A stretch of DNA of 64,000 bases from a virus, in the IMG/VR virus record IMGVR_UViG_3300025133_009608, positions 62,001 to 126,000 of that record; one strand, written 5' to 3'. This document shows, one piece after another, positions 41,057 to 60,433 of this stretch (the stretch's first letter is position 1; each line of letters opens with the position of its first letter). Both the position numbers and the translations under genes were made by a program. The notes under the pieces were generated by a model. That model was not told where the DNA came from. It did not search any database and saw only the letters and a list, made by a program, of their open reading frames with translations.

Positions 41057-41086
41057 ATAATAAATCGATATTATTTATATCAAAAT
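41057..41086 (-). promoter_or_regulatory. T4-like late promoter (TATAAATA) for the MoxR/VWA unit
   Basis: Minus strand reads TTTTGATATAAATAATATCG with the octamer TATAAATA at 41079-41072, identical to the T4 late -10 consensus. Conservation with the other three copies runs on through ATTTATTA. A GAGCGGG-TCGC-CCTGCTC hairpin follows at ~41030-41048 in the leader. Confidence 0.8.
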
Positions 41087-41089
41087 TTT

Positions 41090-41440
41090 CTATTTCTTCT
41101 CATTACTCGGTGGTAACGGGTTTTCATTTAGCCTTGTGTTTATATCTTGCAATCTTTCTCTAAGACCCTTAAAGGAGTCAATCATAGATCCAAGATCCTG
41201 ATCTCCACCAATAGTGGCTCCGGCCCCAATAGCGCCACCAAAGCTTCCTATAATATCCTTTACTTGATCCATCTTTTCTGGAGTAAGCATTTCATCTACA
41301 CTTGAAAACTCCTTTGTTATATCGGATAGCTTATCTATCTTTTCTCCCATGTCATCGATCTTAGATTCCATTCGATCTAGTCGCTCTAAAATATCCGAAT
41401 ATGATACACAGTCGTCGTTATTTTTCATTTGTTTTTCCAT
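41090..41440 (-). CDS. Small coiled-coil protein with glycine-rich centre
   Basis: 116 residues. The N-terminal half is a heptad-repeat coiled coil (ILERLDRMESKIDDMGEKID), the centre is Gly-rich and hydrophobic (GSFGGAIGAGATIGG), and the C-terminus is helical. The layout recalls small holin-, spanin- or scaffold-like proteins but no family is recognised. It is the last gene of the purine-enzyme unit, directly before the late promoter of the MoxR pair. Confidence 0.65.
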   Translation of the reverse strand: MEKQMKNNDDCVSYSDILERLDRMESKIDDMGEKIDKLSDITKEFSSVDEMLTPEKMDQVKDIIGSFGGAIGAGATIGGDQDLGSMIDSFKGLRERLQDINTRLNENPLPPSNEKK

Positions 41441-42511
41441 TTACTTTCTAGTTCCGTAGGCATGAGACTCTGCGAGCCCCGCGTTTGTTATCTTCATAAA
41501 AGAAGCGTTTTCTCTCAGCTCGCTAATAGTCACTGCATTCGCATAACTCATTCCAGATCGAAGCCCTCCCATGAATTCGTCAAGAATATATTTAGCCTTG
41601 CCTTTCACCGGGATATGTGTCGACACTCCCTCGGCGCAAGTCCCCGGCTTCAGCCCTCCTCTTTTATCTTCTTGAATCTCTCTACTTGCAGCGCCACGAT
41701 AGACCTTCATTTTTCTTCCGTCTATATTCACAATGTCACCGGGAGACTCTATCGTTCCAGCAAAAAGCCCTCCAGCCATGATTGCATCGGCTCCAGCTAC
41801 TATGCTCTTAATCATATCTGACGGATACCTTATCCCTCCATCTGCAATTATAGATACATCTTTATAAGATGTATTTTCGGCCCTTGCTCTTTGGCAATCA
41901 ACAATTGTTGATAGCAATGGAACTCCAAACCCCGTCATTATCCGCGTTGAGCAAATCGCTCCAGACCCGATTGACGCCCTAACCGCATTGGCCCCCGCAT
42001 CTGCCAAGTAAGCAAACCCATCGCCGGTTGCTACATTCCCGGCCATTATTTGGTAATTAGAATTATCTTTAATAAACTCAATCATTTCCTTCATCAGTAT
42101 TGAGTGACCATTTGCAATATCAATAGCAACCCAATCAATTATCGAGCCTATTTCATTTTTTAGCGACAAGAACCTTTCTCGACCCTCTCTTCCCACTCCA
42201 ACTGCCGCTACAACTGGGGCTTCATCGGAATGCTCTGATACTTGCCTCAGTGAGGCAATCTGCTCCCCCGTAGAACTAAACCTATGAACAACCCCCATTG
42301 CCCCATGAGAGCCAAGCTCAGAGGCCATTAACGGCCCCGTAACAGTATCCATAGGAGAGGATATCATTGGAACCTCCAACTTGGTGTTTCCAATGAAAGT
42401 TGCAGTGTCAGGAGAGAGTCTGGATCTCACTTCTGAATATGTCGGAACAAGCAAAACATCATCAAATGATAGTCCAGCATTCCAGATAAAGGAGTTCTTT
42501 GAGTTACTCAT
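41441..42511 (-). CDS. guaB: IMP dehydrogenase-like enzyme lacking CBS domains
   Basis: 356-residue IMPDH/GMP-reductase TIM barrel. Shown by [10 protein letters not shown] (14-23), [28 protein letters not shown] with the catalytic Cys187, [25 protein letters not shown] and MAGGLFAGT. The flap and C-terminus ([11 protein letters not shown], then [20 protein letters not shown] and [10 protein letters not shown]) look more like IMPDH than GMP reductase. The CBS pair usually inserted after ~residue 80 is absent, so allosteric control by ATP/GTP is probably lost. It would convert IMP to XMP with NAD, feeding guanine nucleotides. It is in the same unit as adenylosuccinate synthetase. GMP-reductase activity cannot be excluded. 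Confidence 0.87.
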
Positions 42512-43117
42512 CTAATTCCTATTTGAATAAAAGTTTTGGAATTCTCTAGCGAATTCTTCAGATTTGCCATAAAATCGAAGATTGAGGCAAAACTTATCGA
42601 ACAGGTAGTGTGAAGCCTCATGTGCGATTAGCAGCTCATTATTTCTAGAGCCCCTGTCCGTTAGGAATATCGCCGACTGATTTGGATCAGATGGAATCCC
42701 ATCGTAAAGTCCAAAAAGATTGAACGCCGCCAAATTTCCAACCCCAGCAGAAGATCCCCACTGGTTAAACCTATTGTGATCGTTCAACACATTAGATGAT
42801 ACATGGTATATATCAAGGCTCAAATTCGGCCTACACTCAACTATTCTTACGCCTCTCCTCTCAAGGAATACCACATATTCTGCTATAGTTCTTTGTAAAA
42901 CATTATTCAACAATGTTGATGAGAACGCCCCAGAAGATGCGTAACTCTGACTCTGATGATATAAAGAGTACCTGACTGAGTGGCTTCTGGTCGCCACAGA
43001 GTGATTTCCAGATGAAACAAAGTTTATATCAGAGGTTCCTCGATATGGAAACGCCTCAGAGCCTCCGGGGGCCAGCAATATTAGGGAGATTAATAATCCT
43101 TTAAGTATTTTGCTCAT
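42512..43117 (-). CDS. Exported HExxH metallopeptidase-like protein
   Basis: About 201 residues from ATG 43117 (AGGAG 8 nt upstream). The N-terminus is a clear signal peptide: MSKILKGLLISLILLAP with cleavage expected after GGSEA. The mature protein contains LLIAHEASHYLFDKFCLNL with HEASH at 166-170 and a Glu ~17 residues later (SEEFARE), as in gluzincin-like peptidases. It would act in the periplasm or at the cell surface, perhaps on envelope proteins during lysis or exclusion. Sequence outside the motif is not recognised, so the peptidase call rests on the motif and the export signal. Confidence 0.68.
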   Translation of the reverse strand: MSKILKGLLISLILLAPGGSEAFPYRGTSDINFVSSGNHSVATRSHSVRYSLYHQSQSYASSGAFSSTLLNNVLQRTIAEYVVFLERRGVRIVECRPNLSLDIYHVSSNVLNDHNRFNQWGSSAGVGNLAAFNLFGLYDGIPSDPNQSAIFLTDRGSRNNELLIAHEASHYLFDKFCLNLRFYGKSEEFAREFQNFYSNRN

Positions 43118-43301
43118 CCGTTTCTCTCCTGTTGTCGCGACGTTTTCCACGGAGAATTTGAACCTCTAAGTCTGGGTTCAAGTCAATCATTCCAACATGA
43201 TTTCTTGGAACCCCGCGATGTTCCCAGTGTGTTTTTGTCACCTTGTTGTATACTTTAATGTTTAAAGTATTTCTTTCATTTCTGCGTCGGTTATCTACCA
43301 T
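43101..43301 (-). CDS. Small basic protein, unknown function
   Basis: 66 residues, very basic and polar, with several Arg clusters (DNRRRNERN; LRGKRRDNRRE). It overlaps the start of the exported peptidase gene by 17 bp. It could bind nucleic acid; no family is recognised. Confidence 0.55.
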   Translation of the reverse strand: MVDNRRRNERNTLNIKVYNKVTKTHWEHRGVPRNHVGMIDLNPDLEVQILRGKRRDNRRETDEQNT

Positions 43302-43308
43302 GATCTTC

Positions 43309-44235
43309 CTATTCTAGTTCTTCGATTATTTTATTTAGCCGTCGTGAAAGATTGGGATGCTGAGAAGCCGCAGGGATCAGCCATGGAAGGTTGTTTTTTG
43401 AAAAAACTCCCATTAGACCCTCTACTACTTCGTAGTCTCCCGTATCCACAAAAAGCATAAGCCGCTGCTCAATTTTGGCAATCTCTTTCTTGTTATCATT
43501 TAAGATAATAAGCTGGGCAGGATTTAGGTCGCGCTCCTTTGTCCAATATCCAAATGGATATCTAAGCTGATTCACTCTGGCTACAAAGTTATTAATGAGG
43601 GTTCTTTTCATTGTCTTTGTTCCCCTCTTTGCAACATGAGCCAGTATGTCGGGCGAAACAGCGTTTCTGTCAGACGCTTTTCTGATAATAGAATTCCTTT
43701 CCGAAACGGCGCCTTTCTTTCTGCTTATCCTGTTCCATAGATAATTATAGAAACTAGGATCTTCAGAAGTACTGCTCCCAACGGACTCCCACATGCGATA
43801 TGTTCGAACACTCTGATCTGTCAGGCCATGCCTTGAGATCTCTGAAAGATAATCAAAATCAGTTATTGACCTTGAAATCTCCGCTCTAAGCCGATTTGAT
43901 TCGATCTCAAGATCGACTGAGATGGAGTTATAAATTTTATTGATAATGAATGCTTTTACACTTGGAGTTAACCCTGGAATGTCATCTGAGTTACATCTCA
44001 ATACCTGAGACAAGAGTGCGTCCCTTGCTTCAGGGAGCTGCTCCCACAGGTAGGTGAAGTTTTCTCCGGTCAAAATCTTGAACTCCCCGGAGTTATAATA
44101 ATAACTCCGAGAACAGTCCGCCGTTACTGCCGACTTAACTGCCAACTCATAAAAGGCCTCATCTGGAGTCCAGTTTGAGTGTAGCGAAATTAAATTTAAA
44201 ATATCAACTCTTGAATTTTCTTTTGCCTCTTCCAT
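43309..44235 (-). CDS. Helical-repeat (HEAT-like) protein, paralogue family member
   Basis: About 308 residues from ATG 44235 (GGGAG 7 nt upstream, 2 bp after the preceding stop); the distal ATG at 44283 would overlap the neighbour. All-helical, with short helix pairs such as VSPDILAHVAKRGTKTMKRT. Its C-terminal helix (LPWLIPAASQHPNLSRRLNK) resembles the ends of the proteins at 44238 and 53606. It probably belongs to a phage family of HEAT-like scaffold or adaptor proteins with copies in at least three places in the window. Function unknown. Confidence 0.65.
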   Translation of the reverse strand: MEEAKENSRVDILNLISLHSNWTPDEAFYELAVKSAVTADCSRSYYYNSGEFKILTGENFTYLWEQLPEARDALLSQVLRCNSDDIPGLTPSVKAFIINKIYNSISVDLEIESNRLRAEISRSITDFDYLSEISRHGLTDQSVRTYRMWESVGSSTSEDPSFYNYLWNRISRKKGAVSERNSIIRKASDRNAVSPDILAHVAKRGTKTMKRTLINNFVARVNQLRYPFGYWTKERDLNPAQLIILNDNKKEIAKIEQRLMLFVDTGDYEVVEGLMGVFSKNNLPWLIPAASQHPNLSRRLNKIIEELE

Positions 44236-44237
44236 CT

Positions 44238-44987
44238 TTACTCTCCCGAGTCCAATCGTGCTTGAAGTCTTTTTGCTATCCACTTGTTTTTCATATTCCT
44301 ATTGCCAAGAAGCATAGGGATGCTGGAAATATTTATCTTGTCTATAAGAACCGAGAATACCGCTCCAGATATTTCTTTTGTCATTTTTGACAACCTTGAG
44401 TATCCCATTGGAGCCAAGTGAACCGCCTGTACTCTAATGTCTTTTGTTTTATCATCTAGCATTTCATCCAGACACTCTACCGTTCCAAGCCTTGAGAACA
44501 CAACCTCTCTTATCTTTGCATCCTTACTTCTCCTTAGCTGCCTCAAGGTATCAATAGTGCAGTATTGAGCCGCAAATAACTGCGCTGGGCCATTAAGATT
44601 TAGGGCGACATCATTTAGGATCGATATATCTTCATATGAAGATGAACGCAGAAGAGATTCAATCATAGTGCCGTAGTTAAAGCTATATCTGCCGGATGAT
44701 GTTTCTGCCTCATTCTCTATTGCCATCTTGATGACTCTGGAGCCAAGTCTCGGATTTGATTTGGCGATAGCCGCGAAAGCCATCTTCGAATACCAATCAT
44801 TTTGTCCCGAAAGAAATGCCCTAGAAAACAACTCTTCGCTTGAAAGAATCTGAAGAAGCGCCTCCTCTTCTGTTTCTGAAAAGATAAAATTTGTCTTCGA
44901 ATAACTTCCAGACCTATAGTTGGCCTCTATGAGCTTTATTCCATTATTTATCTTATCGATTGTGTCGTTTATTTGTTCCGTCATCAT
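44238..44987 (-). CDS. HEAT-like repeat protein, paralogue family member
   Basis: About 250 residues from ATG 44987 (GGAG 6 nt upstream, within the end of the DHH gene). Degenerate ~30-residue helical repeats are visible: LRQLRRSKDAKIREVVFSRL, then TVECLDEMLDDKTKDIRVQA. These show the Asp/Lys-x-x-(I/V)-R-x-x-(V/A) pattern of HEAT repeats. C-terminus ISSIPMLLGNRNMKNKWIAK matches the same position in its neighbours. Probably a protein-interaction scaffold. Function unknown. Confidence 0.68.
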   Translation of the reverse strand: MMTEQINDTIDKINNGIKLIEANYRSGSYSKTNFIFSETEEEALLQILSSEELFSRAFLSGQNDWYSKMAFAAIAKSNPRLGSRVIKMAIENEAETSSGRYSFNYGTMIESLLRSSSYEDISILNDVALNLNGPAQLFAAQYCTIDTLRQLRRSKDAKIREVVFSRLGTVECLDEMLDDKTKDIRVQAVHLAPMGYSRLSKMTKEISGAVFSVLIDKINISSIPMLLGNRNMKNKWIAKRLQARLDSGE

Positions 44988-45822
44988 ATTCAACTCCAAT
45001 AAATTCATCTATATTATCAACTCTAAATCCTGCGGCCGACCGATGCCCCCCGCCTCCAAAGCTTGAGGCAATCTCTGAAACATCAATTCCATTCTCTCTC
45101 GATCTCAAAGAAACCCTAAACCCGCTTCCATCGAAATAATAAGCCGCCGCAAATGGGCTCCCCTCTGAAAGTTGACCTGCTATTTCCGACTGGAAAAAAG
45201 ATATATTTATAGCCGGAACTTCATAGCCAGCAATATTCATCTTAAAAGAATTCTTAATTAGGCTAGCTATTAGGACATCTTTATACCTTAGAATTCCCCT
45301 TCCGGTACTCACCACCTTTGAATGAGCAGGAGAGTCGCTATCCAATAGAGAGATATGCAGGTCATCCCATGCCTCAAATGTCTTTGGATAAGAATCAATT
45401 GTGGAAAGTATTTCTCTTGAGAAGTCCAACTTCCAATTCCACAAGTCTCTATCTTCAACATGCAGAACGATCGGAGGGACGTTATCTTCTCCGAAAAGAT
45501 ACTTCCAAGAAAGATATGCTCCGGAGTGACTCATGTCAAACTCACAGAAATCCAAATCCCCCAGCTCTTTCTCCGCCGTAATATGATGGTCTATAACGAC
45601 CAATGATTTTGCGGCATCCTTCATCTTCAACAATGTAAGCCGATTATAGGAAAAATCCACAATATATACGGTCTTGCCCTCTATCGGTGGAGGTGGCTCT
45701 CCGTGCTTTGCCGGAATGTACTTGGCTTTATCCCCATACTTTTTCCAAAATGCGAAGGCAGAGCAAAACCCGTCTGGACAATTTGCATGATATAATACAA
45801 CTATATTTTTTTCTTCTTCCAC
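44953..45822 (-). CDS. DHH-family phosphoesterase
   Basis: 289 residues. Motifs: YHANCPDGFCSA (D17), VYIVDFSY (D56), VIDHH (77-80) and, at the C-terminus, the DHHA1 nucleic-acid-binding loop ASSFGGGGHRSAAGF. Family members are NrnA-type oligoribonucleases, cyclic-dinucleotide phosphodiesterases and inorganic pyrophosphatase-like enzymes. The D-H-H plus GGGGH layout fits the nano-RNase/c-di-nucleotide group. It could recycle short RNA into nucleotides or destroy host cyclic-dinucleotide signals, including those of defence systems. The sequence does not separate these. It starts 1 bp after the PurA stop. Confidence 0.85.
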   Translation of the reverse strand: MEEEKNIVVLYHANCPDGFCSAFAFWKKYGDKAKYIPAKHGEPPPPIEGKTVYIVDFSYNRLTLLKMKDAAKSLVVIDHHITAEKELGDLDFCEFDMSHSGAYLSWKYLFGEDNVPPIVLHVEDRDLWNWKLDFSREILSTIDSYPKTFEAWDDLHISLLDSDSPAHSKVVSTGRGILRYKDVLIASLIKNSFKMNIAGYEVPAINISFFQSEIAGQLSEGSPFAAAYYFDGSGFRVSLRSRENGIDVSEIASSFGGGGHRSAAGFRVDNIDEFIGVEYDDGTNKRHNR

Positions 45823-46842
45823 TTAAATAACCTCTGGAGAGTATGAAAACAATACTTCCTTTACATTAGAGGTATTTTCCTCCAGCTTCCTTTCTATAAA
45901 TACTTTCATCTTAGCCAAGTTTAAAAACTCAATAATAGAATCATTATGGAACAACTTAAACACATTGAATTCTTCAAGTATATCGCACTTGCTTATTACA
46001 AGATGAGTCGTTCCGGTAACTTCTGCGGCATAAATTAGATTATCTAAATTCATCCAATTTACTTTCCTTCTTCTCCCGGTTGTAACTCCATATTCTTTCC
46101 CCAACTCCCCAAGCTCTGATAGCTCCGGATCATCAAGAAGGGACGCCGGGAATCTTGGATCTTCTCCTGAGCGGGTATCGTAAATTTTCGAACACCCCCA
46201 TATCTCATTAATCTTTTGAGGGGCGAATCCCAAACTGCAAGCTGCATAAGGAAGCGTTTCGCTGGAAGTTACATATGGATATAACCCATGATTTACATCA
46301 AGATAAAATCCCTGAGCACCTTCGCATAAAATGTTTCCGGAAAGTCTGCCATTCCAAATTATAGATGAATCCAAAGTTCCGTCTGCAAGTATCCCCGTTC
46401 TTGCATACTTAGAGGCATAAGCCGGAGCAATTCCTTTTGATGTTGTTCCCAACTTTGCCGCAAGGTTCTTTTTATCAAAAGCAATATGTTCGTCTGTAAC
46501 GATATGACAATTTGGATGAACCTTTACCAGAGAGGTATCAAATCCATTTTGATTTAAATAATCGATCTCTTTATAAAAAGACTCCGGATGCAGAACGCAC
46601 CCCGGCCCGATAAGGGATGTTATTCCATGGAAAACTCCGGACGGGATGAGGTGGGTTTGATACTTTTTCCCATCAAGAAATACAGTGTGTCCTGCGTTGT
46701 TTCCTCCGGCCCATCTTGCAACCATATTATAATAACTTGATCCATCAGGGCTCTTCTTTTTTGAAAGGGCAGAGGAGATTTTCCCTTTACCCTCGTCCCC
46801 CCAGCAAAGCCCAACTGCTATATCAACCGAATTAACTGTCAT
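45823..46842 (-). CDS. purA: Adenylosuccinate synthetase (PurA-type)
   Basis: 339 residues, the short length of archaeal and phage forms (bacterial PurA ~430). Catalytic loop CWGDEGKGK (13-21) keeps the Asp16 that PurZ enzymes of 2-aminoadenine phages replace with Ser. GGNNAGHTV supplies the catalytic His52. Also present are HLIPSGVFH, GTTSKGIAPAYASKYARTG, EGAQGFYLDVNHGLYPYVTS and the C-terminal GVTTGRRRKVNWMNLD. It joins IMP (or dGMP, if PurZ-like) to aspartate using GTP. With the IMPDH-like gene in the same unit it would control the adenine/guanine branch point. Substrate choice cannot be read from sequence. Confidence 0.92.
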   Translation of the reverse strand: MTVNSVDIAVGLCWGDEGKGKISSALSKKKSPDGSSYYNMVARWAGGNNAGHTVFLDGKKYQTHLIPSGVFHGITSLIGPGCVLHPESFYKEIDYLNQNGFDTSLVKVHPNCHIVTDEHIAFDKKNLAAKLGTTSKGIAPAYASKYARTGILADGTLDSSIIWNGRLSGNILCEGAQGFYLDVNHGLYPYVTSSETLPYAACSLGFAPQKINEIWGCSKIYDTRSGEDPRFPASLLDDPELSELGELGKEYGVTTGRRRKVNWMNLDNLIYAAEVTGTTHLVISKCDILEEFNVFKLFHNDSIIEFLNLAKMKVFIERKLEENTSNVKEVLFSYSPEVI

Positions 46843-47398
46843 CAGTTTCTCCTAAAGATTCTTGTGATTCAATCTTCTTTATTTTACTTGGGCGGCGCAG
46901 AAAAGTAATGCCCTCTTTGTGAGAAGATACTGTTGCGGTAAAAGTTATCGTATCGCCGGGACCGAAAGAATAAGCCTTTGTGGTTTTAAAGAAATACTTC
47001 CAACCATTTTGATCTGCCGCCAAAATCGCTGGCATCGGATACTGAGAGTTTCCTTTCGGGTCGCAAATCTTAACAATATTGAATGGGCCAAGATCATATC
47101 TAGTTCCCTCAAGATAGCTCGGGGTATCTAATGATATTGATGTAATTAAAGATTCTGTCCACTTGTTTATTGAGGCAATCCATTTCTCGGACAGCTTGTG
47201 CGGAGACTCTGTAATTATAGATATTGTTTTCTCGATCCAATCATTAGTCTTTCTTCCCCTCTCTCTTGCCAAAAGGGGTACGGCCATCGGATGAATCGCA
47301 TTTAGATTCTTTTCTGACAGCCGACTAATCTCTTCTTTTGATAAACGCTTTTTTCTGCGCCTCTTCTTCGGAGCATTATTGTTGAATATATTAATCAT
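46832..47398 (-). CDS. Unknown protein with basic N-terminus and beta-rich C-terminal domain
   Basis: About 188 residues from ATG 47398; a TTG at 47425 would add nine residues and sits only ~22 bp from the late -10 box. The N-terminus is strongly basic (APKKRRRKKRLSKEE). The C-terminal ~90 residues end with GWKYFFKTTKAYSFGPGDTI, then FTATVSSHKEGITFLRRPSK. This resembles small OB-like modules at the ends of phage helicase or nuclease proteins (GD-x-(I/V)-x-F-x-A-x-V). First gene after a late promoter and overlapping purA by 11 bp. Function unknown. Confidence 0.6.
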   Translation of the reverse strand: MINIFNNNAPKKRRRKKRLSKEEISRLSEKNLNAIHPMAVPLLARERGRKTNDWIEKTISIITESPHKLSEKWIASINKWTESLITSISLDTPSYLEGTRYDLGPFNIVKICDPKGNSQYPMPAILAADQNGWKYFFKTTKAYSFGPGDTITFTATVSSHKEGITFLRRPSKIKKIESQESLGETDDS

Positions 47399-47430
47399 CT
47401 TAAAACAATCTCGGTTGCGGTTCAACTACC

Positions 47431-47463
47431 AATAATGAATCGAGATTATTTATATCAAAATTT
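47431..47463 (-). promoter_or_regulatory. T4-like late promoter (TATAAATA) for the purA unit
   Basis: Minus strand TTTTGATATAAATAATCTCG with TATAAATA at 47454-47447, then ATTCATTATTGG. One base in the downstream half differs from the other copies. It lies 18 bp after the stop of the large virion gene and drives the genes from 47398 down towards 41090. Confidence 0.8.
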
Positions 47464-47481
47464 AATGACGATGATTATATT

Positions 47482-50400
47482 CTATCGGAGACGTCTGGCG
47501 AGATTAGTCTCTCCCAAGCCGTTTAATATGGCCGCGATGATACATGTGTTTGCTATCTTACCAAGAGTCTCTGTCCGGTCCGGGATGGGCGAATATTCGC
47601 CATTAGTTGTGGAAAAAAAATAGACCCCAAACCTTCCAAGGAGATAGTTTCCAAGCAGATCCCTGGCCGCTTGGACATATTCTGTAGGCTCGGGCGAGTT
47701 GTCTAATAAAACCTTTTTTAATCCTCCCCCGTCATTCCGAAACGCTCTTCCAGATAGATCGACGGAAGTGTTCGGGCTACTTATAGAATAAATATCACCG
47801 GGACCATTTCCTGTTTGATTGGAAATTAGATTACTGATGGTCCTGGTAGTAATCAACTCATTTACTTTGGCCTGAATTTCGGCCCCTTGATTCTGGCTAG
47901 CACGCGCAGCCGCTTGCTGCTGAGTCGGGGCGTTCGTGGGGGTTCTGCCGCTGAGTCCTGAAATGGATGTGCCAGCACCATTAGCAGCAGCAGCAGTATC
48001 CATATCCATAATCATTTTCTTTATATCGTTTTTAATTGCAGTATTCTCCATCCAAAGATCGACGAACCTTACGGTGCCTCCCGCGCTTCTCTTATATCTT
48101 CCAAATACATACATTCCATAAGGTTCTTCTCCATGCTTACTCCATAGGGAATCAAGATGGGAGCTGAGATTCGCGCTTCCAATTGCGTCCTTTGCCGACT
48201 CCCAAGCGTTATTTAATGCCGAATAACTGGGCAAGTTATCCGGCCACTCTTGGTCGCGGCTCCCAAAGAAGTTTCTAATAATATCGTCAGTTACACTCGC
48301 TTCCCTTTGGGTGTTCTCGACGGATGCATAAGGATCAAGTCGCACCCCACTAGCCTGCTGTGATTCGCTCATTTGATCAATGGTACTTTTCAGGCGAGAA
48401 AGAGCTGCTTCCGGACCGGATGAGGATTCCCAAGACTCAGCGTAACTTGCATCATTCCTCATTCTTGTAAAAAAAGGATCATGGGAAGCTGGAACGTATC
48501 CAGGATTGTTTTTAAAAGAATCATGAGCCGCTACCCAAAAATTATACCAAGCCGTCTGTGTATTTGAACCCCAATCATCGTCGATATTACCGGTGTAGTA
48601 TCGACCGGTTTGTAGTTCTGTTTGTATCTTTCCAATATTGCCGTTTGCGGCGGTTTGCCGTGGCTGCGGCGAATAATTAGGAAAGGGATTTACATTTCCG
48701 TTTGCTGAGGCGCCACCTGAGCCGCCTCTGGGGCCACCTCCTCTGGAGGCTCCAGCGGGTGGGGATTGACCGATGGGTTGCGCCGTCTTATCTAATGAAT
48801 CCTTTTTTTTTGATCTGCTCGATATTGCCCTTAGGGCCACATGATCATCTGCAAACGACTCCAGCATCCATGTAGCAGCGGACCCTGCTTTTGATAGCCA
48901 CCTTCCATTCATCTTAATCCAGAGTTTTCCTTCGTCGCTGGCATCGTCAATCGGCCCCGTTTGATCAGCATCAATATCGTCCTTCCAGGTATAATCTCTC
49001 AAAGGAATAACTATGCCCCTGCTTTGACGAGCTTGGGCTATGGTGTTGAGCGAGCGGAAAAAAAGCACTCTAGTATTTTCCGAATCAAATACGTGGTGGG
49101 CTCCACTATCATAGACTATGTGCGACACCATTTCTGGGTTTAGAATAAAGGGAGATTCGTCAAGATTTCCTTCGACTATTTCAAAATTGGTATCGCCCAC
49201 GGTTTTTGTATTATTTGCCCGGCTGGTGACTGCGACTGGAGCATAACCTCTATCATAAGCAGACTTGAGAGCTTCCAGGGTGTCCTTAGCACCTGCGTAG
49301 TAAGGAGCAGACTGACTCCCCGGATTAGTGCCGGTCCCGAATAAAAAATCGTTTAATTCAGTAACATCGTCATCCGAGCCCCCATGAGCAAGGTCTTGTG
49401 TTTGTTGCTCGAAGCTCTGTCTAAATAATGGAAAGGTGGATAAACTGCCGCGATTGTAGGCTCTTTTTATGCTCCTTATTATTACATCAAAAGTTGTTGC
49501 GTCCGTACTCTGAAATAGGTTGTCGTCGTCCTCTTTGATTGCAAGTCTCGCCGCGTCAAGAAAGCTGCCCATGGCACTGAAAATAGGATCACCTGTTGCC
49601 ATCTTTCTAATCATATTTGATCGAAGTAATGAAAGTCTCTCCAGCCGAGCATTATGGATATCATAAGCATGGCGCAACCCTTCGGCCGCAGCACGCGCAT
49701 CGTTGTAGAAAGGAGCAGATTGACGCCCCGGATTATTGCCGGTCCTGAATAAAAAATCGTTTAATTCAGTAACATCGTCATCCGAGCCCCCTTGAGCAAG
49801 GCCTTGTGTTTGTTGCTCGAAGCTCTGTTTAAATAATGGAAAGGTGGATAAATTGCCGCGATTGTACCGATCTAATAATACACGCTCAATTGATTCAAAG
49901 GCCGTGAAGTCACGGCCCTGAAATAGGTTGTCGTCGTCCTCGTTAATTGCTCTTTTTGTTGCCGCCAAAAAAGCCCGCATGGCAGGCCGAATAGTGTCAG
50001 GAGTATTCTTCTCCGGTTTGGCGGCCAAGTCATCAGGGGTATTCTGCGGAGCCTGCACAGGACCATGGAGGTCGCCCGTATAGGCCATCTTTCTAATCAT
50101 ATTTGATTGAGCGGCATACCCGGAGTTATTTAAAGCCAAAGCTAATTTCTTTAATTCATTATTCATTTTACTTTCCCTTGATGTAACAACCCTTGATTCA
50201 TCGCCGAAGCCCAGCCACGAAAAGAAGTCTTTCTCAGATTTATCTTTATTATTAGTAGGATTTCCAAGAACATTATACTCGGAAGTTCCGGAATCTTTTC
50301 TTTGAATATTAACGGGAGGTTGATCCTCCGGCAAATCCATTGGCGATGACTTTCCGAAGCCCGAAGAATCCGAAGCCTCTTGATCGCCATCTCCATAATT

Positions 50401-53254: not shown

Positions 53255-53290
53255 AATTAATTCATTTCACAATTCAGCGATGAATATTAG

Positions 53291-53325: not shown

Positions 53326-53343
53326 GCTTAAAATTGCTTAACT

Positions 53344-53613: not shown

Positions 53614-54466
53614 CGTCCGGTCCTCCATCTTCGTGCTCTTCCATTCTTCTCTCAATAATTACTTTTGCAGAATAATATTCCGTTCCCATAATTGATGTCA
53701 AAAGGTGTATCGGAAGGCTCTTTGCCAATGTCGTCTGAACCCATTCATGCTTGGAGTCTGAAAACTTTAAAAGAAGATTCTCATACCTTCCTTTATACAA
53801 ATCCCTATGCTTAATAAGAGTCTCAAGTCCAGCATTTGATGCCTCTTCTGAGGCTTCGGACCGAATCTTTCTGGCCTCCTTTTCTGACAAAACCCCGGCG
53901 CTTATATAATGCCTATAAAGAAACCCGCGAACTCTATATCCAAACGAAACCTTGGTCGCCTTATCAAATAAGGCCGAGCGAACAAATAACGGAATAGTGC
54001 TCTCATCCTGCTTTGCCACCCCAGAGGCTATGCTTTCTAATATTCTAGATACATACGAAGTCCTTTCTGCTCTTTTCATTTCCTGAAAAAACAGCGGCTT
54101 CCAATCAAACTTTGGATTCAATCGGGCTGCCGACAAATAAATTGAATCGGAATTCCTAGCGATATGAGTTAGCTTTGTTTCCCCATATTCACATAATTCT
54201 TTAAAATTCGATAGATCGTCGATTATACTTGCCCAAAAAGGTGACTCGTTATATATGTCAACCCCGCCATTAACGAGGCTGGTCATTATTGCCTGTCTCG
54301 CACTTTCTGACAAGTCACTATAATACGGCTCCATTAGATGGAGATTGTTGGAGATAGTTCTCCGCGCAGCCTTGGCCACTTCAGATCTATCATAGGTATA
54401 ATGATTTGGCCGAAACAAACTATCCGTACCATACTTAATGAAAAAGTCTTTTATTTCCTTATTCAT
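53606..54466 (-). CDS. Helical-repeat (HEAT-like) protein, paralogue family member
   Basis: 286 residues, all-helical, with repeat-like segments (LTHIARNSDSIYLSAARLNP; LETLIKHRDLYKGRYENLLL; DSKHEWVQTTLAKSLPIHLL). The C-terminus LLTSIMGTEYYSAKVIIERR corresponds to the ends of the proteins at 43309 and 44238. Likely an adaptor or scaffold. It lies in a late promoter-to-terminator unit of three small genes. Confidence 0.65.
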   Translation of the reverse strand: MNKEIKDFFIKYGTDSLFRPNHYTYDRSEVAKAARRTISNNLHLMEPYYSDLSESARQAIMTSLVNGGVDIYNESPFWASIIDDLSNFKELCEYGETKLTHIARNSDSIYLSAARLNPKFDWKPLFFQEMKRAERTSYVSRILESIASGVAKQDESTIPLFVRSALFDKATKVSFGYRVRGFLYRHYISAGVLSEKEARKIRSEASEEASNAGLETLIKHRDLYKGRYENLLLKFSDSKHEWVQTTLAKSLPIHLLTSIMGTEYYSAKVIIERRMEEHEDGGPDDE

Positions 54467-54740
54467 TACAAAGACTCCCCATCAATCTTGTGAATTCTTC
54501 GAGATTCTCATTCAGAATGGAAATCTTAACCGCATCATTCAGAAGCCCCCAGAGCGGCGCGATGTCTTTGAGCGGAAGCCTGGCGAAGCGCACAACATAC
54601 TCTTTTTCATCCCCGCTATAGGAATTAGAGCAAGAGTTGATTCCCTTTGCTATTAGATAATTATATACTTGCTCTACTTCGATCTCAGGAGATTGCTCGT
54701 CCTCTCCCTCAATAAGCCTAATTGATTCTATATTGCTCAT
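54459..54740 (-). CDS. Small unknown protein at the head of a late unit
   Basis: 93 residues; ATG 54740 has AAAGGA about 8 nt upstream. Features are an acidic N-terminus and a C-terminal LKDIAPLWGLLNDAVKISIL, NENLEEF helix pair. It overlaps the HEAT-like gene by 8 bp. The late -10 box lies ~50 bp upstream of the start. No family recognised. Confidence 0.62.
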   Translation of the reverse strand: MSNIESIRLIEGEDEQSPEIEVEQVYNYLIAKGINSCSNSYSGDEKEYVVRFARLPLKDIAPLWGLLNDAVKISILNENLEEFTRLMGSLCNE

Positions 54741-54772
54741 TCTATATTCCTTTTTTCGATAGGTTCACTGAG

Positions 54773-54804
54773 GTATAATAAATCGAGATTATTTATATCA
54801 AAAC
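54773..54804 (-). promoter_or_regulatory. T4-like late promoter (TATAAATA) after groEL-2
   Basis: Minus strand TTTTGATATAAATAATCTCG with TATAAATA at 54797-54790, then ATTTATTATACC. It sits within the 67-bp gap between groEL-2 and the 54459 gene. Together with the terminator at 53291-53325 it delimits a complete three-gene transcript. Confidence 0.82.
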
Positions 54805-54807
54805 TTT

Positions 54808-56409
54808 CTATTCCTTGATATCTTCATCATAAATAGCGACTTCAGTAGTTAGAAGTGTTCCGCTGGCAGATGCGGCATGTTCCACTGCCGACCTTACAAC
54901 TTTCACCGGATCAATAACTCCGGACTTTATCATATCTGACTGAAAAGAATTCGTCAGAGCATTATATCCGCAAGTTGTATTTTTTGAGTTTATAATTTTC
55001 TGCATAAACTCATAAGGCTCTACTCCGGCATTGGTCAAGATCTGCTTAAACGGAGCACAAATTGCACGAGATACTATTCCAACTCCAACCGCCTCCTCTG
55101 CAGATAAAGAAGAATCTTTTAATAATTTTTTCAACTCCGGGACGCAATGCAACAGAGCAGCTCCCCCTCCTGGGACGATCCCCTCTTGAATCGCCGCCTG
55201 AACAGCATTTATCGAATCCTCCACTCGATCCTTTCTTTCTCTCATCTCCGCCTCTGACATTCCGCCAACCCTAAGTACCGCAACTGCCCCAGACAGCGTT
55301 GAGAGCCTATGCCGAAGAGATGCAGCCTGATGAGGGAACAGGTCAGAGCTTTCAAGCTGAGACTTTATACCTAGAATCCTAGTCTCCACATCAGCGGAGT
55401 CTCCGCCGCCATCTATTATGGTTGTCTTGTTTCTTGAAATAATTACTTTTCTTGCCGTTCCAAGATCCGAAAGCGATACGCTCCTAAGAGCATTTCCCCC
55501 CTCATTTGTCAGCATTCTCCCGCCACAAATTGTGGCAATATCACCTAACATTTCTGCTCGAATATCTCCAAAGCCAGGAGCCTTCACGGGACAGGAGTCA
55601 AGAGTTCCTCGGGCCTTATTTAAAACAAGAGTCTGCAAGGCCTCTGAGTTTACATCTTTTGCTATAATTACTACTGGCTTCGACGCTTCAGACGCGGCCT
55701 GTAATACAGACAAAAACTCCTGACTAGAAGTAAGGGCATCATCGTATGTAATAATAAATGGATTATCAAACTCAACTGTGAGCTTCTCTTGATTCGTAGA
55801 GAATGCAGGAGAAATATATCCCCTGTCGAATGATAGACCTTCAGTATAAGAGGTCGTTGTTTCTGAGCCAGCCGCCTCTTCTACGGAGATAATTCCATCA
55901 TCCCCAACCGTTGTCACTACCTCTGCGATTAGAGAGCCCAATTCGATATCATTATTCGCAGATATAATTGCAACATCTCTGACCGTATCCGTTCCAGAAA
56001 CCTCTGATGAAATATCTTTCAAAAAAGAGACGACAGTGCTTACTGCTATGTCTATTCCTCTTTTTATCAAAACTGGATTATGCCCAGCGGCAACCATCTT
56101 AGCTCCCTCGGTATAAATCGACTGAGCTAATATGGTTGCCGTTGTTGTTCCGTCACCGGCAACAGAGTTTGTTGATGAGGCAACTGATTTTATGAGCTGA
56201 GCACCCATGTTTTCTATCTTATCCGAAAGACTTATAGAACGAGCAACAGTCACCCCGTCCTTTGTAACCAAAGGGGGGCCGTAAGACCTGTCAATGGCGG
56301 CGTGCCTACCTTTTGGACCTAGAGTTACCTTGACAGCGTTTGCCAAAATATCTAATCCGATTTGCATTCCGCTTCTTGCATCAAGGCCTATCTTTACTTC
56401 TTTGCTCAT
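54808..56409 (-). CDS. groEL: GroEL-like chaperonin, second copy
   Basis: 533-residue group I chaperonin. LGPKGRHAAID (30-40), TKDGVTVARS (49-58), AGDGTTTATI (84-93), SINAVQAAIQEGIVPGGGAA with the hydrolytic Asp just before it, and CGYNALTNSFQSDMIKSGVI are all present. It differs widely from the first copy (2668-4314) but keeps more canonical residues in the first domain (LGPKGR rather than MGPQGR). The C-terminus ends YDEDIKE without Gly-Gly-Met repeats. No groES is adjacent. It is followed by a late promoter and preceded by the small repeat-bearing gene and a candidate sigma-70 promoter, so it may be expressed at a different time from the first copy. Confidence 0.93.
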   Translation of the reverse strand: MSKEVKIGLDARSGMQIGLDILANAVKVTLGPKGRHAAIDRSYGPPLVTKDGVTVARSISLSDKIENMGAQLIKSVASSTNSVAGDGTTTATILAQSIYTEGAKMVAAGHNPVLIKRGIDIAVSTVVSFLKDISSEVSGTDTVRDVAIISANNDIELGSLIAEVVTTVGDDGIISVEEAAGSETTTSYTEGLSFDRGYISPAFSTNQEKLTVEFDNPFIITYDDALTSSQEFLSVLQAASEASKPVVIIAKDVNSEALQTLVLNKARGTLDSCPVKAPGFGDIRAEMLGDIATICGGRMLTNEGGNALRSVSLSDLGTARKVIISRNKTTIIDGGGDSADVETRILGIKSQLESSDLFPHQAASLRHRLSTLSGAVAVLRVGGMSEAEMRERKDRVEDSINAVQAAIQEGIVPGGGAALLHCVPELKKLLKDSSLSAEEAVGVGIVSRAICAPFKQILTNAGVEPYEFMQKIINSKNTTCGYNALTNSFQSDMIKSGVIDPVKVVRSAVEHAASASGTLLTTEVAIYDEDIKE

Positions 56410-56432
56410 TCTATTAGATCTCCTTTTAGTTT

Positions 56433-56687
56433 TTACTCTACCGTTGTGGTGCTAGACTCAGTTGTACCAGTTGTGGTGCTAGACTCAGTTGTACCAGTTG
56501 TGGTGCTAGACTCAGTTGTACCAGTTGTGGTGCTAGACTCAGTTGCCTCTGATGCCTCAGGAGCATCTACCGAAGATGCTGGCTCAAATGAACACGTTCC
56601 AAACACGGAGCCGACAACTAACACGCCGCCAACAATGGCAGCCTTAACTTGCCACTTGGCAACCCATTCTTTTACTTTTGCAAACAT
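56433..56687 (-). CDS. Small membrane peptide with TESSTTTG tandem repeats
   Basis: 84 residues: a short basic N-terminus (MFAKVKEWVAKWQVK), one transmembrane segment (AAIVGGVLVVGSVFGTCSF) and a Ser/Thr/Glu tail with four copies of a 9-residue TESSTTTGT unit. The Cys after the hydrophobic run is in FGTC, not a good lipobox, so it is probably a simple single-pass protein with its tail outside the membrane. Thr/Ser-rich repeats could be glycosylated or act as a spacer. Located directly upstream of groEL-2. Confidence 0.65.
   Translation of the reverse strand: MFAKVKEWVAKWQVKAAIVGGVLVVGSVFGTCSFEPASSVDAPEASEATESSTTTGTTESSTTTGTTESSTTTGTTESSTTTVE
56443..56544. repeat. 27-bp tandem repeat, ~3.8 copies
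   Basis: Identical 27-bp units start at 56443, 56470, 56497 and 56524 and encode the TESSTTTGT units of the small membrane peptide. The number of copies could vary between isolates by slippage. Confidence 0.9.
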
Positions 56688-56714
56688 AACTTGATCCTTT
56701 ATAATATTAAAGTA

Positions 56715-56743
56715 ATTTTACCATTTTAACGACTTAATTGCAA
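56715..56743 (-). promoter_or_regulatory. Candidate sigma-70-type promoter upstream of the groEL-2 unit
   Basis: Minus strand TTGCAA (56743-56738), 17 bp, TAAAAT (56720-56715). It matches consensus at 4/6 and 5/6 with ideal spacing, in the 97-bp gap 5' of the small membrane peptide gene. CATTTTAA/TTAAAATG arms flank the -35, so the region could also fold or bind a regulator. Confidence 0.42.
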
Positions 56744-56784
56744 TTAAAATGATAGGTCATTCTACTTAATTTTTCGAAAAATAA

Positions 56785-57444
56785 TCAACTATTTTCCGAC
56801 CGCAACCTAACCACGCCGTCGGAAATGTCAACCCAACTTGTATGAGCCACCCAATCGCCCGAATTACAGAATGTCTTTATCTCTCCCTTTTCGTCAACCC
56901 AAATTATACATTCTGGGATATGAGAGTGACCTACAATGAGTACATCGACATCGTCATTCCTGTGCAGGATGTCCCATACTCTTCTTAGTTTTCTTTTTTT
57001 AAGCTTACGATTAACATACCATGTAGTTAGATCCCATCCAAATTTTCGCTCCATCCAGTCATGAAAAATCGACAGTATCCTTATCCAAAAGTCCATGTGA
57101 ACAATTCCGGAGTCATACTGATCCCCGTGCTCTATTCTGAATCTTCTCCCACCTTCTTCAAACTCAAATTTATCCACAAAAGAAATCCCCTTTACGGCTT
57201 TGCCGATAAGGGGCTTGAACGAAAAGTCATGATTGCCAACGATATATATTATATCTTTTGAGTAATCTATCGCCTCCAGTATATCTATCGCTCTCTCTGT
57301 AAATAATGGAATCTTAATAAAATCAATTATATCTCCGGCCAAGATTAATTGGTCGTACTCTTCTTTTTTTAAGAAAGAAGCCAAAGCCTTTCCGTTATAA
57401 TGAAGGCTTCCTATGTGAGTGTCAGATATAACTATTCTTTTCAT
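56785..57444 (-). CDS. LpxH-like calcineurin metallophosphoesterase
   Basis: 219 residues with the complete metal-binding set: SDTHIG (7-12), AGDIIDF, IVGNHDFS, EHGDQYD, VGHSHIPE and FCNSGDWV. The layout, with an inserted helical segment (MERKFGWDLTTWYVNRKLKK), resembles UDP-2,3-diacylglucosamine hydrolase (LpxH) and related phosphoesterases. It could act on lipid A precursors, nucleotides or phosphoproteins; sequence alone does not tell. It is distinct from the SbcD-type enzyme at 24820. Confidence 0.85.
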   Translation of the reverse strand: MKRIVISDTHIGSLHYNGKALASFLKKEEYDQLILAGDIIDFIKIPLFTERAIDILEAIDYSKDIIYIVGNHDFSFKPLIGKAVKGISFVDKFEFEEGGRRFRIEHGDQYDSGIVHMDFWIRILSIFHDWMERKFGWDLTTWYVNRKLKKRKLRRVWDILHRNDDVDVLIVGHSHIPECIIWVDEKGEIKTFCNSGDWVAHTSWVDISDGVVRLRSENS

Positions 57445-57449
57445 TCTAT

Positions 57450-57809
57450 TTATTCTACTTCATCTGAAGATTCTTCGCTCAAAGAATCCCCCTCTACATC
57501 GGCTGGCGGGTTTTTAATAGCTTCTTCTTTTGCTATTTTCATCTCCTTCTTTTTCTCGGCCCGCTCAATTCTTGATAGCTTTCCGGTTATTCTTTCTGCT
57601 GCAAATGTCAGCTCATCTTCGTCCAACCCTGCGGCAAAAAAGTAAAGAGCAGCCTTTCCGCCCTCAGTTAGTCCCCGCTCCAACTCCTCCAGCCTTGCGG
57701 TTAAAGAGTTAATCTCCATCATTTCTCGAAGAAGCTCCTGGCCGGAGGATAAAAGCTTTTTATCATCTGAGTTATCGATCATGGATCTGAAGTCATCAAG
57801 TCTGGACAT
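57450..57809 (-). CDS. Small charged helical protein, unknown function
   Basis: 119 residues; ATG 57809 preceded by GAGG. Predicted long helices (LLREMMEINSLTARLEELER; IERAEKKKEMKIAKEEAIKN) and an acidic tail (SEESSDEVE). It is divergently oriented to the plus-strand gene at 57879. No family recognised. Confidence 0.62.
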   Translation of the reverse strand: MSRLDDFRSMIDNSDDKKLLSSGQELLREMMEINSLTARLEELERGLTEGGKAALYFFAAGLDEDELTFAAERITGKLSRIERAEKKKEMKIAKEEAIKNPPADVEGDSLSEESSDEVE

Positions 57810-57828
57810 ATTTGCCTCTATTAATAAT

Positions 57829-57858
57829 TTGGTCTGAATGGGATTATAGTATTATAAT
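57829..57858 (+). promoter_or_regulatory. Candidate promoter for the plus-strand gene
   Basis: TTGGTC (57829-57834), 18 bp, TATAAT (57853-57858): a perfect -10 with a weak -35, 21 bp before the ATG. The 69-bp divergent gap also reads TATAATACTATAAT on the minus strand and could serve both genes. Confidence 0.38.
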
Positions 57859-57878
57859 GATAAGGTTTTAGATTTACA

Positions 57879-59363
57879 ATGAAAATTAGCGCAAACTACA
57901 AGAAAGATATACGCAACTTAGGTGAAGCATTTCAGTCTTTAAATATGACGTCTGCCTCTGTAAAGCTTGCTGGAATGCTAAAAACATCTTCCTACGAAAC
58001 GCTCTCCGGGGAACATAACGAGTACCAACTATGGACTTCCGTAATTGACGAGTGTATGAAGCCACCACCCTCGGCAATTCAAACTGCCGCCGAAACATAC
58101 CTAAGGCCCGGCTCAGATGCTATGACAAACACGCCGCCGCCGGAATCTCTGGATCAAGATGAAATAAGAGAGTCTATAGCTATAGTAGAGGAAAACGATA
58201 TAGATCTTGAGAATATATCCACTGCGTGTATAAACTACATGAAAATAGAAAAGAACTTATATAAAACGGCTAGTTTAAATCAAGCCATGTCTTGGCGCAG
58301 AACTATGGAGCTAGCAGCAAGGGCGGCTCTAGAAGAAGCAGAAAGAGTAATGCCAAACTCTATTTCAAAAGAAGAGATAAAGCTAGCATCTGTTCAGGCG
58401 GGGCTTCTCTTTACAAAAGAGCGGCTCGAAAAAAGAGGCTCATGGACCTCTCCAATAAGATGGATTGGAAACAAAGTAAAAGGAGCACTTGGATTAGTAA
58501 AAAGAGCCCTTGGAAGGCTGCTTCCTGTTATTGGAGTGGTCGCCTCTATTTACTTTGCATATGACTCCTGGAAAAAGTGGAGAAAAGAAATAAACTTTAT
58601 ATTTACAGACCTAGACGCTGGAAGCTACGGAATAACTCAGATGGATACATGGTTCGTGTCGGGGCTATCTGAAAAAATAAATTCTGGCTTATCTGACAAA
58701 ATGAACATAACTCTTTCTCCGAGTGAAACTCCAAGCTGCGAAGGGACTTCAGAGTGTGGATGGAAATACGTTGAAGAGCCACCCGAAGAGGTTTCGTTTA
58801 GTGAAATGGTAGAAGATATGGGAGAAATATTTACCGGAGGAGGCGAGATTGTTAGGCCGGAGTTTATCGAAGGTGGATCGCGACCCTTTAGGTCTAATAC
58901 TGGAAACCCATCTGATTTTATATCACTTGCGGCACTAAACACATCATGTGAAGCCATAATGGTTCATGCTTATTATTTGCTAGAAAATATAATTATGGGA
59001 ATTGTAAGCCTCTGGGCGCTGATTGTCGAAATAATTGCAGTTCTTGGAGCAGTAACCGCTCCGATTGCAGGTATAGCCGCAGCAATTGACTTGGTTGTAT
59101 CAACCGCCGCAATGCAACAAGGATGGGCGAGAAGAAAGAAGCTAAGAGCCGGATTTACAAACAATAGAAACTTTATATTTGGCGTTGCAGGAGAGAATCA
59201 GCAAAGGATTAATAGCCTCACTTATGGGTTCAGTATAGAAGAGGCCAGGAATGAAGCTATAAACCAAACTGAACCGGCGAATAATACTCCGGACATTAAC
59301 CTGATGCCAACGGCGATAAGAGGCGGAGTCGCCGCCCTCAGAGCAGCTGCAAGCCTAAGCTAA
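57879..59363 (+). CDS. Plus-strand membrane protein with shared N-terminal module
   Basis: 494 residues, the only gene on this strand. The first ~40 residues (YKKDIRNLGEAFQSLNMTSA, then SVKLAGML) resemble the helical module at the start of the 47-53 kb virion-like proteins. A hydrophobic helix follows around residues 210-228 (LLPVIGVVASIYFAYDSWKK), and a longer hydrophobic region, probably two or three helices, around 365-412 (NIIMGIVSLWALIVEIIAVL; APIAGIAAAIDLVVSTAAMQ). Between them lies a Cys-containing, Pro/Glu-rich domain. The Shine-Dalgarno is weak (AAGG 13 nt upstream). It may be an injected or internal virion protein with membrane activity, comparable in style to the protein at 50644. 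Confidence 0.8.
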   Translation: MKISANYKKDIRNLGEAFQSLNMTSASVKLAGMLKTSSYETLSGEHNEYQLWTSVIDECMKPPPSAIQTAAETYLRPGSDAMTNTPPPESLDQDEIRESIAIVEENDIDLENISTACINYMKIEKNLYKTASLNQAMSWRRTMELAARAALEEAERVMPNSISKEEIKLASVQAGLLFTKERLEKRGSWTSPIRWIGNKVKGALGLVKRALGRLLPVIGVVASIYFAYDSWKKWRKEINFIFTDLDAGSYGITQMDTWFVSGLSEKINSGLSDKMNITLSPSETPSCEGTSECGWKYVEEPPEEVSFSEMVEDMGEIFTGGGEIVRPEFIEGGSRPFRSNTGNPSDFISLAALNTSCEAIMVHAYYLLENIIMGIVSLWALIVEIIAVLGAVTAPIAGIAAAIDLVVSTAAMQQGWARRKKLRAGFTNNRNFIFGVAGENQQRINSLTYGFSIEEARNEAINQTEPANNTPDINLMPTAIRGGVAALRAAASLS

Positions 59364-59445
59364 GTACCAATCAAGCCAGCTCTTTTCCCATTCCTCTTTC
59401 GAGACTTGAAACTTTCTCTTACCTCGAAATATAAAATACAAAACC

Positions 59446-60267
59446 TTAGCCGCCCGACTCTCCTTGCTTAACATTAAGTTCTCCTCCATGATGCTGCATC
59501 TTTAGTCGCAGTATCCTGTCCAATTCGCCAGAAATAGTAGAAAGATCCAAATGATACGGAATCTCATCTGCTGGAAGTCTCGCCACAAGTTCCTGAAGAA
59601 TGTGACTATAGCTCCAACCGCCTAGCAGTCCATTATCGTTTGAATTGGTCATTTCATTTCTTATTCTTTCTATGCCGTCTATCGGGGATAAAGTAGAGTT
59701 TATAAGAGCCTCTCTTTTTATCCAGTAGTTAGAATCAGTCACAAGATCATCAGCACAGTTAGCGATTCCAATTCTCTTAATCACAGCACACCTGACAGCG
59801 TAGCTACTATCGCCCATCATCTTTTTCAAAACAGAAACAGGCACAATCTTAGATGCCCTCAGTCTAGCCCTCTGGTCTTTAGACCTAACTCCTCGCTTTG
59901 CAGCACGAAGCATATCTTTTCCACAAGTATTATCCAGAGTTGCCGAAAGAAATAATCCAACAGATTTGTCTATTAGAATGTTCTTGGCCTCAAGAGACAC
60001 ATTACATAAGTCTTTTGTGAGAAAGAATATCAAATAACCATACGGGCGGGGTGAGGAGCGGCTACACACATAGGAGGGGTATTTTATCCAATACTTATTT
60101 GAAACCAGTGCCTTAAGCCTCTTGAGATCACATAGAGCCCATTCCAATATCTTATCGTTGTCAAATGAGCTCCGGTAGGCATAAGACATCACCGCGTCCT
60201 TTCTCGCTCCTTGTACTACTTTTATAAAATCCGTGATAACCCTAGACTGCTTAATCTTTTTTGACAT
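59446..60267 (-). CDS. HEAT-like repeat protein, paralogue family member
   Basis: 273 residues, ATG 60267 with AGGAGG upstream. HEAT-like units are visible: RARLRASKIVPVSVLKKMMG, SSYAVRCAVIKRIGIANCAD, NYWIKREALINSTLSPIDGI. These carry the D-s-x-x-x-(V/I)-(R/K) turn typical of the fold. It matches the 44238 protein in style. It is convergent with the plus-strand gene; the 82-bp gap 59364-59445 shows no clear terminator. A late promoter lies upstream. Confidence 0.68.
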   Translation of the reverse strand: MSKKIKQSRVITDFIKVVQGARKDAVMSYAYRSSFDNDKILEWALCDLKRLKALVSNKYWIKYPSYVCSRSSPRPYGYLIFFLTKDLCNVSLEAKNILIDKSVGLFLSATLDNTCGKDMLRAAKRGVRSKDQRARLRASKIVPVSVLKKMMGDSSYAVRCAVIKRIGIANCADDLVTDSNYWIKREALINSTLSPIDGIERIRNEMTNSNDNGLLGGWSYSHILQELVARLPADEIPYHLDLSTISGELDRILRLKMQHHGGELNVKQGESGG

Positions 60268-60391
60268 CCCTAAATCCCCTCCTATTGCTCAAGAACAAAC
60301 AATAAACAAGAACACAAACAGTAGACCAATAAGCCGCCGAAGATGCCTTTGAAAATGTTGCCTCTGCTTTTTTAAAAATTCGAGTTCTCAT
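60251..60391 (-). CDS. Possible 46-residue single-pass membrane peptide
   Basis: Short frame starting at ATG 60391, ~27 bp after a TATAAATA box, and overlapping the next gene by 17 bp. It encodes a basic N-terminus (MRTRIFKKAEATFSKA), one hydrophobic helix (AYWSTVCVLVYCLFL) and a basic tail. The ribosome site is weak, so it is only a candidate, but its position directly behind a late promoter is suggestive. It fills most of the otherwise gene-free 60268-60460 interval. Confidence 0.38.
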   Translation of the reverse strand: MRTRIFKKAEATFSKASSAAYWSTVCVLVYCLFLSNRRGFRDVKKD

Positions 60392-60400
60392 CTTATACAC

Positions 60401-60433
60401 CAATAATAAATCGAGATTATTTATATCAAAATT
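60401..60433 (-). promoter_or_regulatory. T4-like late promoter (TATAAATA)
   Basis: Minus strand TTTTGATATAAATAATCTCG with TATAAATA at 60425-60418, then ATTTATTATTGG. Nearly identical to the copies at 41.1, 47.4 and 54.8 kb and in the same orientation. It precedes the small membrane peptide and HEAT-like gene. Confidence 0.82.

Follow-up and report, generated by a model that had tools for sequence, protein, structure and literature searches.

Lineage-specific promoter-like elements and a separate TAYTAAT motif in a jumbo phage with three sigma-70-family genes

The window analyzed here is a stretch of 64,000 nucleotides, bases 62,001-126,000 of the 316,664-bp IMG/VR virus record IMGVR_UViG_3300025133_009608, and this study concerns a short repeated element with the octamer TATAAATA that occurs four times in it, together with the related elements found across the whole record. 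The record encodes a tail sheath, a portal protein, a large terminase, a PolIII-alpha-type DNA polymerase, two GroELs and a tubulin-like protein, a gene set that identifies it as a tailed jumbo phage. A megablast search with positions 40-64 kb of the window against a phage collection recovered no match, nor did a search of the window against Rfam.

The four elements and their genome-wide set

The common part of the four elements is a 20-mer, TTTTGATATAAATAATCTCG, which occurs on the minus strand in three exact copies (60412-60431, 54784-54803 and 47441-47460) and in one copy with a single mismatch (41066-41085). Its chance expectation in the window is 0.03, and four copies were reached in 0 of 100 shuffles. 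In all four elements it is followed downstream by ATTTATTA, reading ATTCATTA at 47.4 kb; the conserved block extends over 28-29 bp. The octamer by itself is mildly enriched in the window (11 occurrences against 4.1 expected), with four of the 11 belonging to these elements. All four lie in gaps between genes and are directed at the next minus-strand gene. A preliminary description of this DNA had reported near-identical, intergenic elements of a single orientation placed 5' of genes, and had suspected that more than the octamer is read; the counts confirm the former, and the length of the conserved block supports the latter.

The first element (60403-60431, minus strand), of the form TTTTGATATAAATAATCTCGATTTATTAT and with its octamer at 60418-60425, has a gene for a 273-amino-acid protein downstream (59446-60267, minus strand). 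The second (54775-54803, minus) is situated between groEL (54808-56409) and a gene for a 93-amino-acid protein (54459-54740, minus), where relatives possess elements of the TTTCTWCATCRGTTATAT type instead. The third (47432-47460, minus) is a ATTCATTAT variant upstream of a gene for a 197-amino-acid protein (46832-47425, minus), and the fourth (41057-41085, minus), a variant with AATATCG, is upstream of a gene for a MoxR-type AAA ATPase (39916-40992, minus) that served as the anchor of the comparative promoter panel. The groEL gene next to the second element is one of two GroEL-type chaperonin genes in this single phage genome; the other is at 2668-4314, and both match phrog_5725.

A scan of the whole record recovered nine copies with the consensus TTTTGATATAAATAATCTCGATTTATTAT (class A), the four of the window among them, and 34 copies of a sister class B with the consensus TTCnATAAATAAGATCGATTYATTATAG followed by a weaker AAGTG. 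A 19-mer of the element has seven exact copies in the record, all on the minus strand, and its reversed-pattern control has none. All class A copies possess the octamer; class B has [CG]ATAAATAA in its place, within a spacer that reads ATAAATAAGATCGATT. In the information profiles class A is conserved from TTTTGA to TATTAT, and class B from TTC to TATTATAG with a weaker signal at the start site, while further upstream of TTC no conservation is seen. Duplication of whole gene cassettes was considered as the origin of the copies and rejected, since conservation is absent from the flanking sequence upstream of the elements.

A Shine-Dalgarno-like sequence and a start codon on the same strand follow 33 of the 34 class B copies and seven of the nine class A copies, with the class B start codon at a median of 26 nucleotides after TATTAT; the two class B copies on the plus strand precede plus-strand genes. 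Class B thus behaves as promoters do, and the proposal that the elements are promoters is supported, the set as a whole being highly conserved, phage-specific and matched in strand to the downstream genes. Gene calling was by a simple longest-open-reading-frame script, so that the small number of elements it placed in coding sequence are probably overlapped by spurious reading frames. Class B is packed into 160-192 kb of the record, a region of short genes (median 96 amino acids, against 191 elsewhere). No element of either class was found in the record outside 102-192 kb, and none in the structural-gene regions, upstream of late or virion genes.

Orthologous promoters in relatives and the TAYTAAT motif

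Exact-pattern scans of viral contigs with the class A and class B cores recovered no other contig, and relatives were therefore sought among viral contigs by protein searches with the GroEL and the MoxR ATPase of the window. The MoxR protein is 79-84% identical in 14 viral contigs, which are genome fragments and in which the pairs L065/L066 and L069/L072 share the same promoter region; four relatives mapped in detail display long synteny with the window. In none of the 14 MoxR relatives is a class A or class B element present in register, and the octamer is likewise absent in register. Instead, the orthologous sites, including those of class A, carry other lineage-specific elements. In G003 and G004 the element is TTTCTWCATCRGTTATAT, with 30 and 11 matches respectively at three or fewer mismatches, and de novo motif searches recovered the same element in G003, G004 and G007. 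Other relatives read TTTTTACATCGAATACAAT, TTTCTTATCGGTTACTAT or TTTTTACATCAACTACTAA at orthologous promoters. In G001, G002, G005 and G013 no repeated element stood out in de novo searches, probably because few promoters lie on those fragments. The relatives' elements and the TATCGATTTATTAT of the window have in common ATC(G/A) and, one to three nucleotides further on, TAYnnn; the window has one extra nucleotide between the two, leaving the exact register uncertain, and MAFFT aligns the window element with its orthologues without a gap. A further intergenic repeat, GGGCAA[AT]AGnTTTAC, occurs 28 times in G003 (L039-L045), mostly at 109-128 kb and often near promoter elements. It has four copies in the genome of the window (record positions 176533, 178313 and 185241 on the minus strand and 179266 on the plus strand) and one to four in G004, G007 and G010.

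From its geometry, TATTAT is likely to be the -10 hexamer (-12 to -7), an assignment which the comparison of relatives supports. For the MoxR promoter the proposed hexamer (41057-41062, minus strand) aligns with the TAYnnn box of the orthologues. TTTTGA of class A, 17 nucleotides from TATTAT, would then occupy the -35 position (-35 to -30), and the octamer would fall within the spacer between the two. The octamer as a -10 is disfavored by class B, which has no conservation upstream, where a -35 would be needed. Downstream of the MoxR element a hairpin, CTGAGCGGG/CCCTGCTCAG (41029-41050, minus strand), lies at the predicted 5' end of the mRNA and has a counterpart at the same offset in orthologous leaders, beginning 10-12 nucleotides after the first base of TAY in nearly all core-bearing copies, including that of the window. 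The short consensus stem shows changes on both sides in two of its four pairs, with one or two sequences breaking some pairs, and the leader of L063 is predicted to fold differently. Given this conserved offset, the simplest reading is that the mRNA starts at or near the hairpin, about 7 nucleotides after TATTAT. The hairpin also argues against a start 5-8 nucleotides after the octamer, which would fall upstream of TATTAT. Of the earlier claim that the elements contain the exact T4 late -10 sequence, the match to TATAAATA in class A stands; a role as a -10 is unsupported, as the octamer is lost at the orthologous promoters of relatives and lies in the predicted -35/-10 spacer.

The genes outside 102-192 kb present a different picture. 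A de novo search upstream of them recovered cTAYTAATatT, and in the gaps of this part of the record CTAYTAAT occurs eight times in sense and never in antisense orientation, with no sense occurrence in coding sequence there. TAYTAAT sits at structural and replication genes, is conserved in up to eight related phages and recurs ahead of the same genes from lineage to lineage (in 5/5, 5/5, 6/6, 7/7 and 7/8). Judged by near-universal conservation it is clearly the best of 140 anagram patterns, with five genes as against at most two (mean 0.12); by a looser count it is narrowly the best, with 10 against 9 for AATATTY, a pattern that overlaps the motif's own extension. De novo searches also ranked it first in G011 and placed it among the leading motifs in G010. 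The copy in the window (CTATTAAT, 34698-34705, minus strand) is present at its gene in seven of eight lineages and is a candidate for the true late-type promoter box. This conservation across lineages indicates that the promoter box of the structural genes is TAYTAAT rather than TATAAATA; its designation as "late" follows from gene content. No description of CTATTAAT as a phage late promoter was found in the titles and abstracts of the best-matching literature.

Sigma factors, polymerases and the competing explanations

Three genes of the sigma-70 family are present in the record. The product of the first (sigma1; record 137067-137987, 306 amino acids) matches phrog_351 at 1.6e-42 and RpoH in PDB at 7e-22. 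The second (sigma2; window 18741-19571, minus strand) has a region 2 (Pfam Sigma70_r2, E=6e-7), a weak region 4 and a Cys-rich insert, and like the third (sigma3; record 223171-223710, 179 amino acids) it matches phrog_351/1740, whereas T4 gp55 is phrog_234/34068/12791. Orthologues of sigma2 are found in seven relatives, of sigma1 in four and of sigma3 in one. Neither PHROGs nor BLASTP relates any of the three to gp55, and hhalign was negative for sigma1 and sigma2. For sigma2 the values against gp55 were a BLASTP E of 0.04 and an hhalign probability of 1.5%, with which a remote kinship within the sigma-70 superfamily is conceivable. The structure that AlphaFold2 predicts for sigma2 has low confidence (predicted local distance difference test score, pLDDT, of 67), and its best PDB matches, mostly sigma subunits, have low template modeling (TM) scores, so that it adds little. 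The preliminary description was hence right in placing a sigma-70-type factor at this locus, while the gp55-likeness it ascribed to the protein is unsupported. The Cys-rich insert, which lies between regions 2 and 4, is absent from the sigma2 orthologues of G003 and G007, both of which use TTTCTWCATCRGTTATAT promoters.

Our preferred explanation, which we regard as rather probable, is that the four elements are phage-specific early or middle promoters with TATTAT as the -10, used by the host polymerase together with a phage-encoded specificity factor. Such a factor, which would direct the host core RNA polymerase to classes A and B, is proposed because within a genome the elements shift as a set and their positions are retained, for which the conserved host primary sigma offers no explanation. 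The RpoH-like sigma1 is the favored putative reader, given its regions 2, 3 and 4 and the location of its gene within the part of the genome that harbors class A and class B. The conservation of the spacer suggests an additional DNA contact in recognition, which sigma region 3 or a co-factor might provide. Class B would then serve the early small-gene module, class A early and middle operons, and TAYTAAT the structural genes, these temporal classes being assigned by gene content and position. A stronger form of this proposal, which we advance tentatively, is that a phage-encoded factor or pair of factors reads the whole of an unusually long block, about 28 contiguous bp with the spacer as part of it, and that all 30-40 copies have shifted jointly in each lineage, with positions and the MoxR hairpin fixed, as in the co-evolution of a regulator with its regulon, next to a separate TAYTAAT late code that stays constant.

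Several points weigh against the preferred explanation. The hexamers are no better conserved than the spacer, a pattern that a plain sigma promoter would not usually show and that hints at an additional DNA-reading protein or a different polymerase; the -35 of class B is weak; and a recognizable core is missing in three MoxR relatives (L059, L064 and L069/L072). An immediate-early class B would further require that a phage sigma be made beforehand or be brought in with the virion. Where transcription starts, when it occurs and which protein reads the elements are all predictions from sequence.

The preliminary description took the elements for a T4-type late regulon. In such a regulon TATAAATA would be a stand-alone -10 at late genes, where a gp55-like sigma would act together with gp33 and a sliding clamp; this reading draws on the exact octamer in the intergenic class A copies and the sigma gene in the window. 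However, we hold it to be very improbable: the octamer is not kept at orthologous sites, conservation spans the entire 28-29 bp, the elements keep away from the part of the record where the virion genes lie, the structural genes there carry TAYTAAT, and none of the sigmas is detectably related to gp55. A search for a gp45-type sliding clamp with PF02916 gave no match in the record, with control genomes barely responding. If the elements were instead ordinary early promoters of the host primary sigma holoenzyme, their long identity would reflect recent spread of a cassette or selection for strength. The resemblance of TATTAT to TATAAT, the TTTGA about 17 nucleotides before a TTATAT box in G003 and the near-identical subfamilies of class B leaders, as expected after duplication, are in keeping with this; on balance it is unlikely, as the unconserved upstream flanks imply that whole cassettes were not recently copied, and from one related phage to another the elements at given loci are altered together, while the specificity of the primary sigma is conserved across bacteria.

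The conserved spacer is accommodated directly by a model in which it is the operator of a phage activator or repressor over ordinary promoters, with the -10 read by a host or phage sigma, and class A indeed contains a partial dyad, ATAAAT-N7-ATTTAT. Most class B copies interrupt that dyad (ATTCAT, with C at 0.64 in position 16) and the G003 elements lack it, which makes this model doubtful; its palindromic version was rejected on account of the T/C position that breaks the dyad. For phage single-subunit RNA polymerases of the T7/N4 type the recognized sequence is typically a single uninterrupted stretch of about 23 bp, and the contiguous 28-bp conservation ending near the start site could likewise mark promoters of an unrecognized enzyme of this kind. 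AAGATCGATTCATTATAGGTAAG matches the T7 consensus at 14 of 23 positions, and several very large proteins in the record have no family match. Nevertheless, no predicted protein contains a motif-B-like sequence with the HD[SD] signature, the scanned large proteins (many proteins being unannotated) gave no match to an RNA polymerase family, and PF00940 found nothing, but its control was silent too, rendering that search weak. The three sigma genes moreover point to use of the host core polymerase, and we consider this origin quite improbable. Searches for a multisubunit RNA polymerase with PF00623 and PF00562 gave no match in the record, with all 14 control genomes positive, though a highly diverged phiKZ-type enzyme could escape them; the NADFDGD-type catalytic motif was likewise not found.

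Other parts of the record contain some unusual genes and repeats. Record 236212-238635 (L019:16212-18635) encodes a predicted 807-amino-acid protein that matches, in one reading frame, a glycosyltransferase and then a tubulin/FtsZ GTPase domain; 256564-259950 (L020:16564-19950) encodes a 1128-amino-acid protein with partial PARP-catalytic-like and NUDIX domain matches; and 226990-228975 (L019:6990-8975) encodes a PrkA-type serine kinase. Outside the window, AGAAAGATCACCAG occurs in eleven copies at 29078-30467 (L009 9078-10467), neighbors being mostly 108-120 bp apart, and this array is probably a repeat inside coding sequence.

Implications and comparison with known systems

Should the preferred explanation hold, this phage family would provide, at orthologous sites, a natural series of regulators paired with their promoters, in which the early/middle code shifts lineage by lineage while the late code TAYTAAT remains constant, and would make it possible to study how a transcription factor evolves jointly with dozens of binding sites. 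It would also furnish a predicted transcription map for a group of jumbo phages with no cultured close relative in the searched collections. On a more general note, finding the T4 late octamer letter for letter does not suffice to diagnose T4-type late transcription.

The Bacillus phage SPO1 has a sigma cascade, with gp28 for middle and gp33/34 for late genes. It is likewise a large phage in which several sigma-like regulators occur along with separate classes of bipartite promoters. The consensus sequences of the phage studied here differ from those of SPO1, whose elements consist of short hexamers and have no conserved spacer. Late promoters of T4 and cyanomyoviruses have TATAAATA or NATAAATA and depend on gp55, gp33 and gp45 (PMC2984593). 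Class A shares the octamer TATAAATA with them; unlike theirs, it varies between relatives, is not found at structural genes and is embedded in long flanking conservation, no gp55-related sigma was detected, and TAYTAAT seems to be the late-type box of this family. The AR9 and phiKZ jumbo phages have multisubunit RNA polymerases and phage-specific early and late promoter motifs (PMC5312081, PMC7598289), and phage-specific motifs of presumed early and late use are again seen here, in a record in which, unlike in those phages, no multisubunit RNA polymerase was detected. In phiEco32 and 7-11 the sigma-70-family factors gp36 and gp47, respectively, redirect the host RNA polymerase to highly conserved promoters of low copy number (PMC8948821, PMC4331800), and between these two phages promoter positions are similar while the consensus and the phage sigma differ (PMC8948821). 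The present system differs from them in its block of about 28 bp, its 43 copies in two classes, their apparently early/middle rather than late use, and its 316-kb genome with three sigma genes, the reader among which is here a predicted one. It is nonetheless reminiscent of phiEco32 and 7-11 in that sigma-70-family genes are present and related phages have kept the positions of their promoters and changed the consensus.

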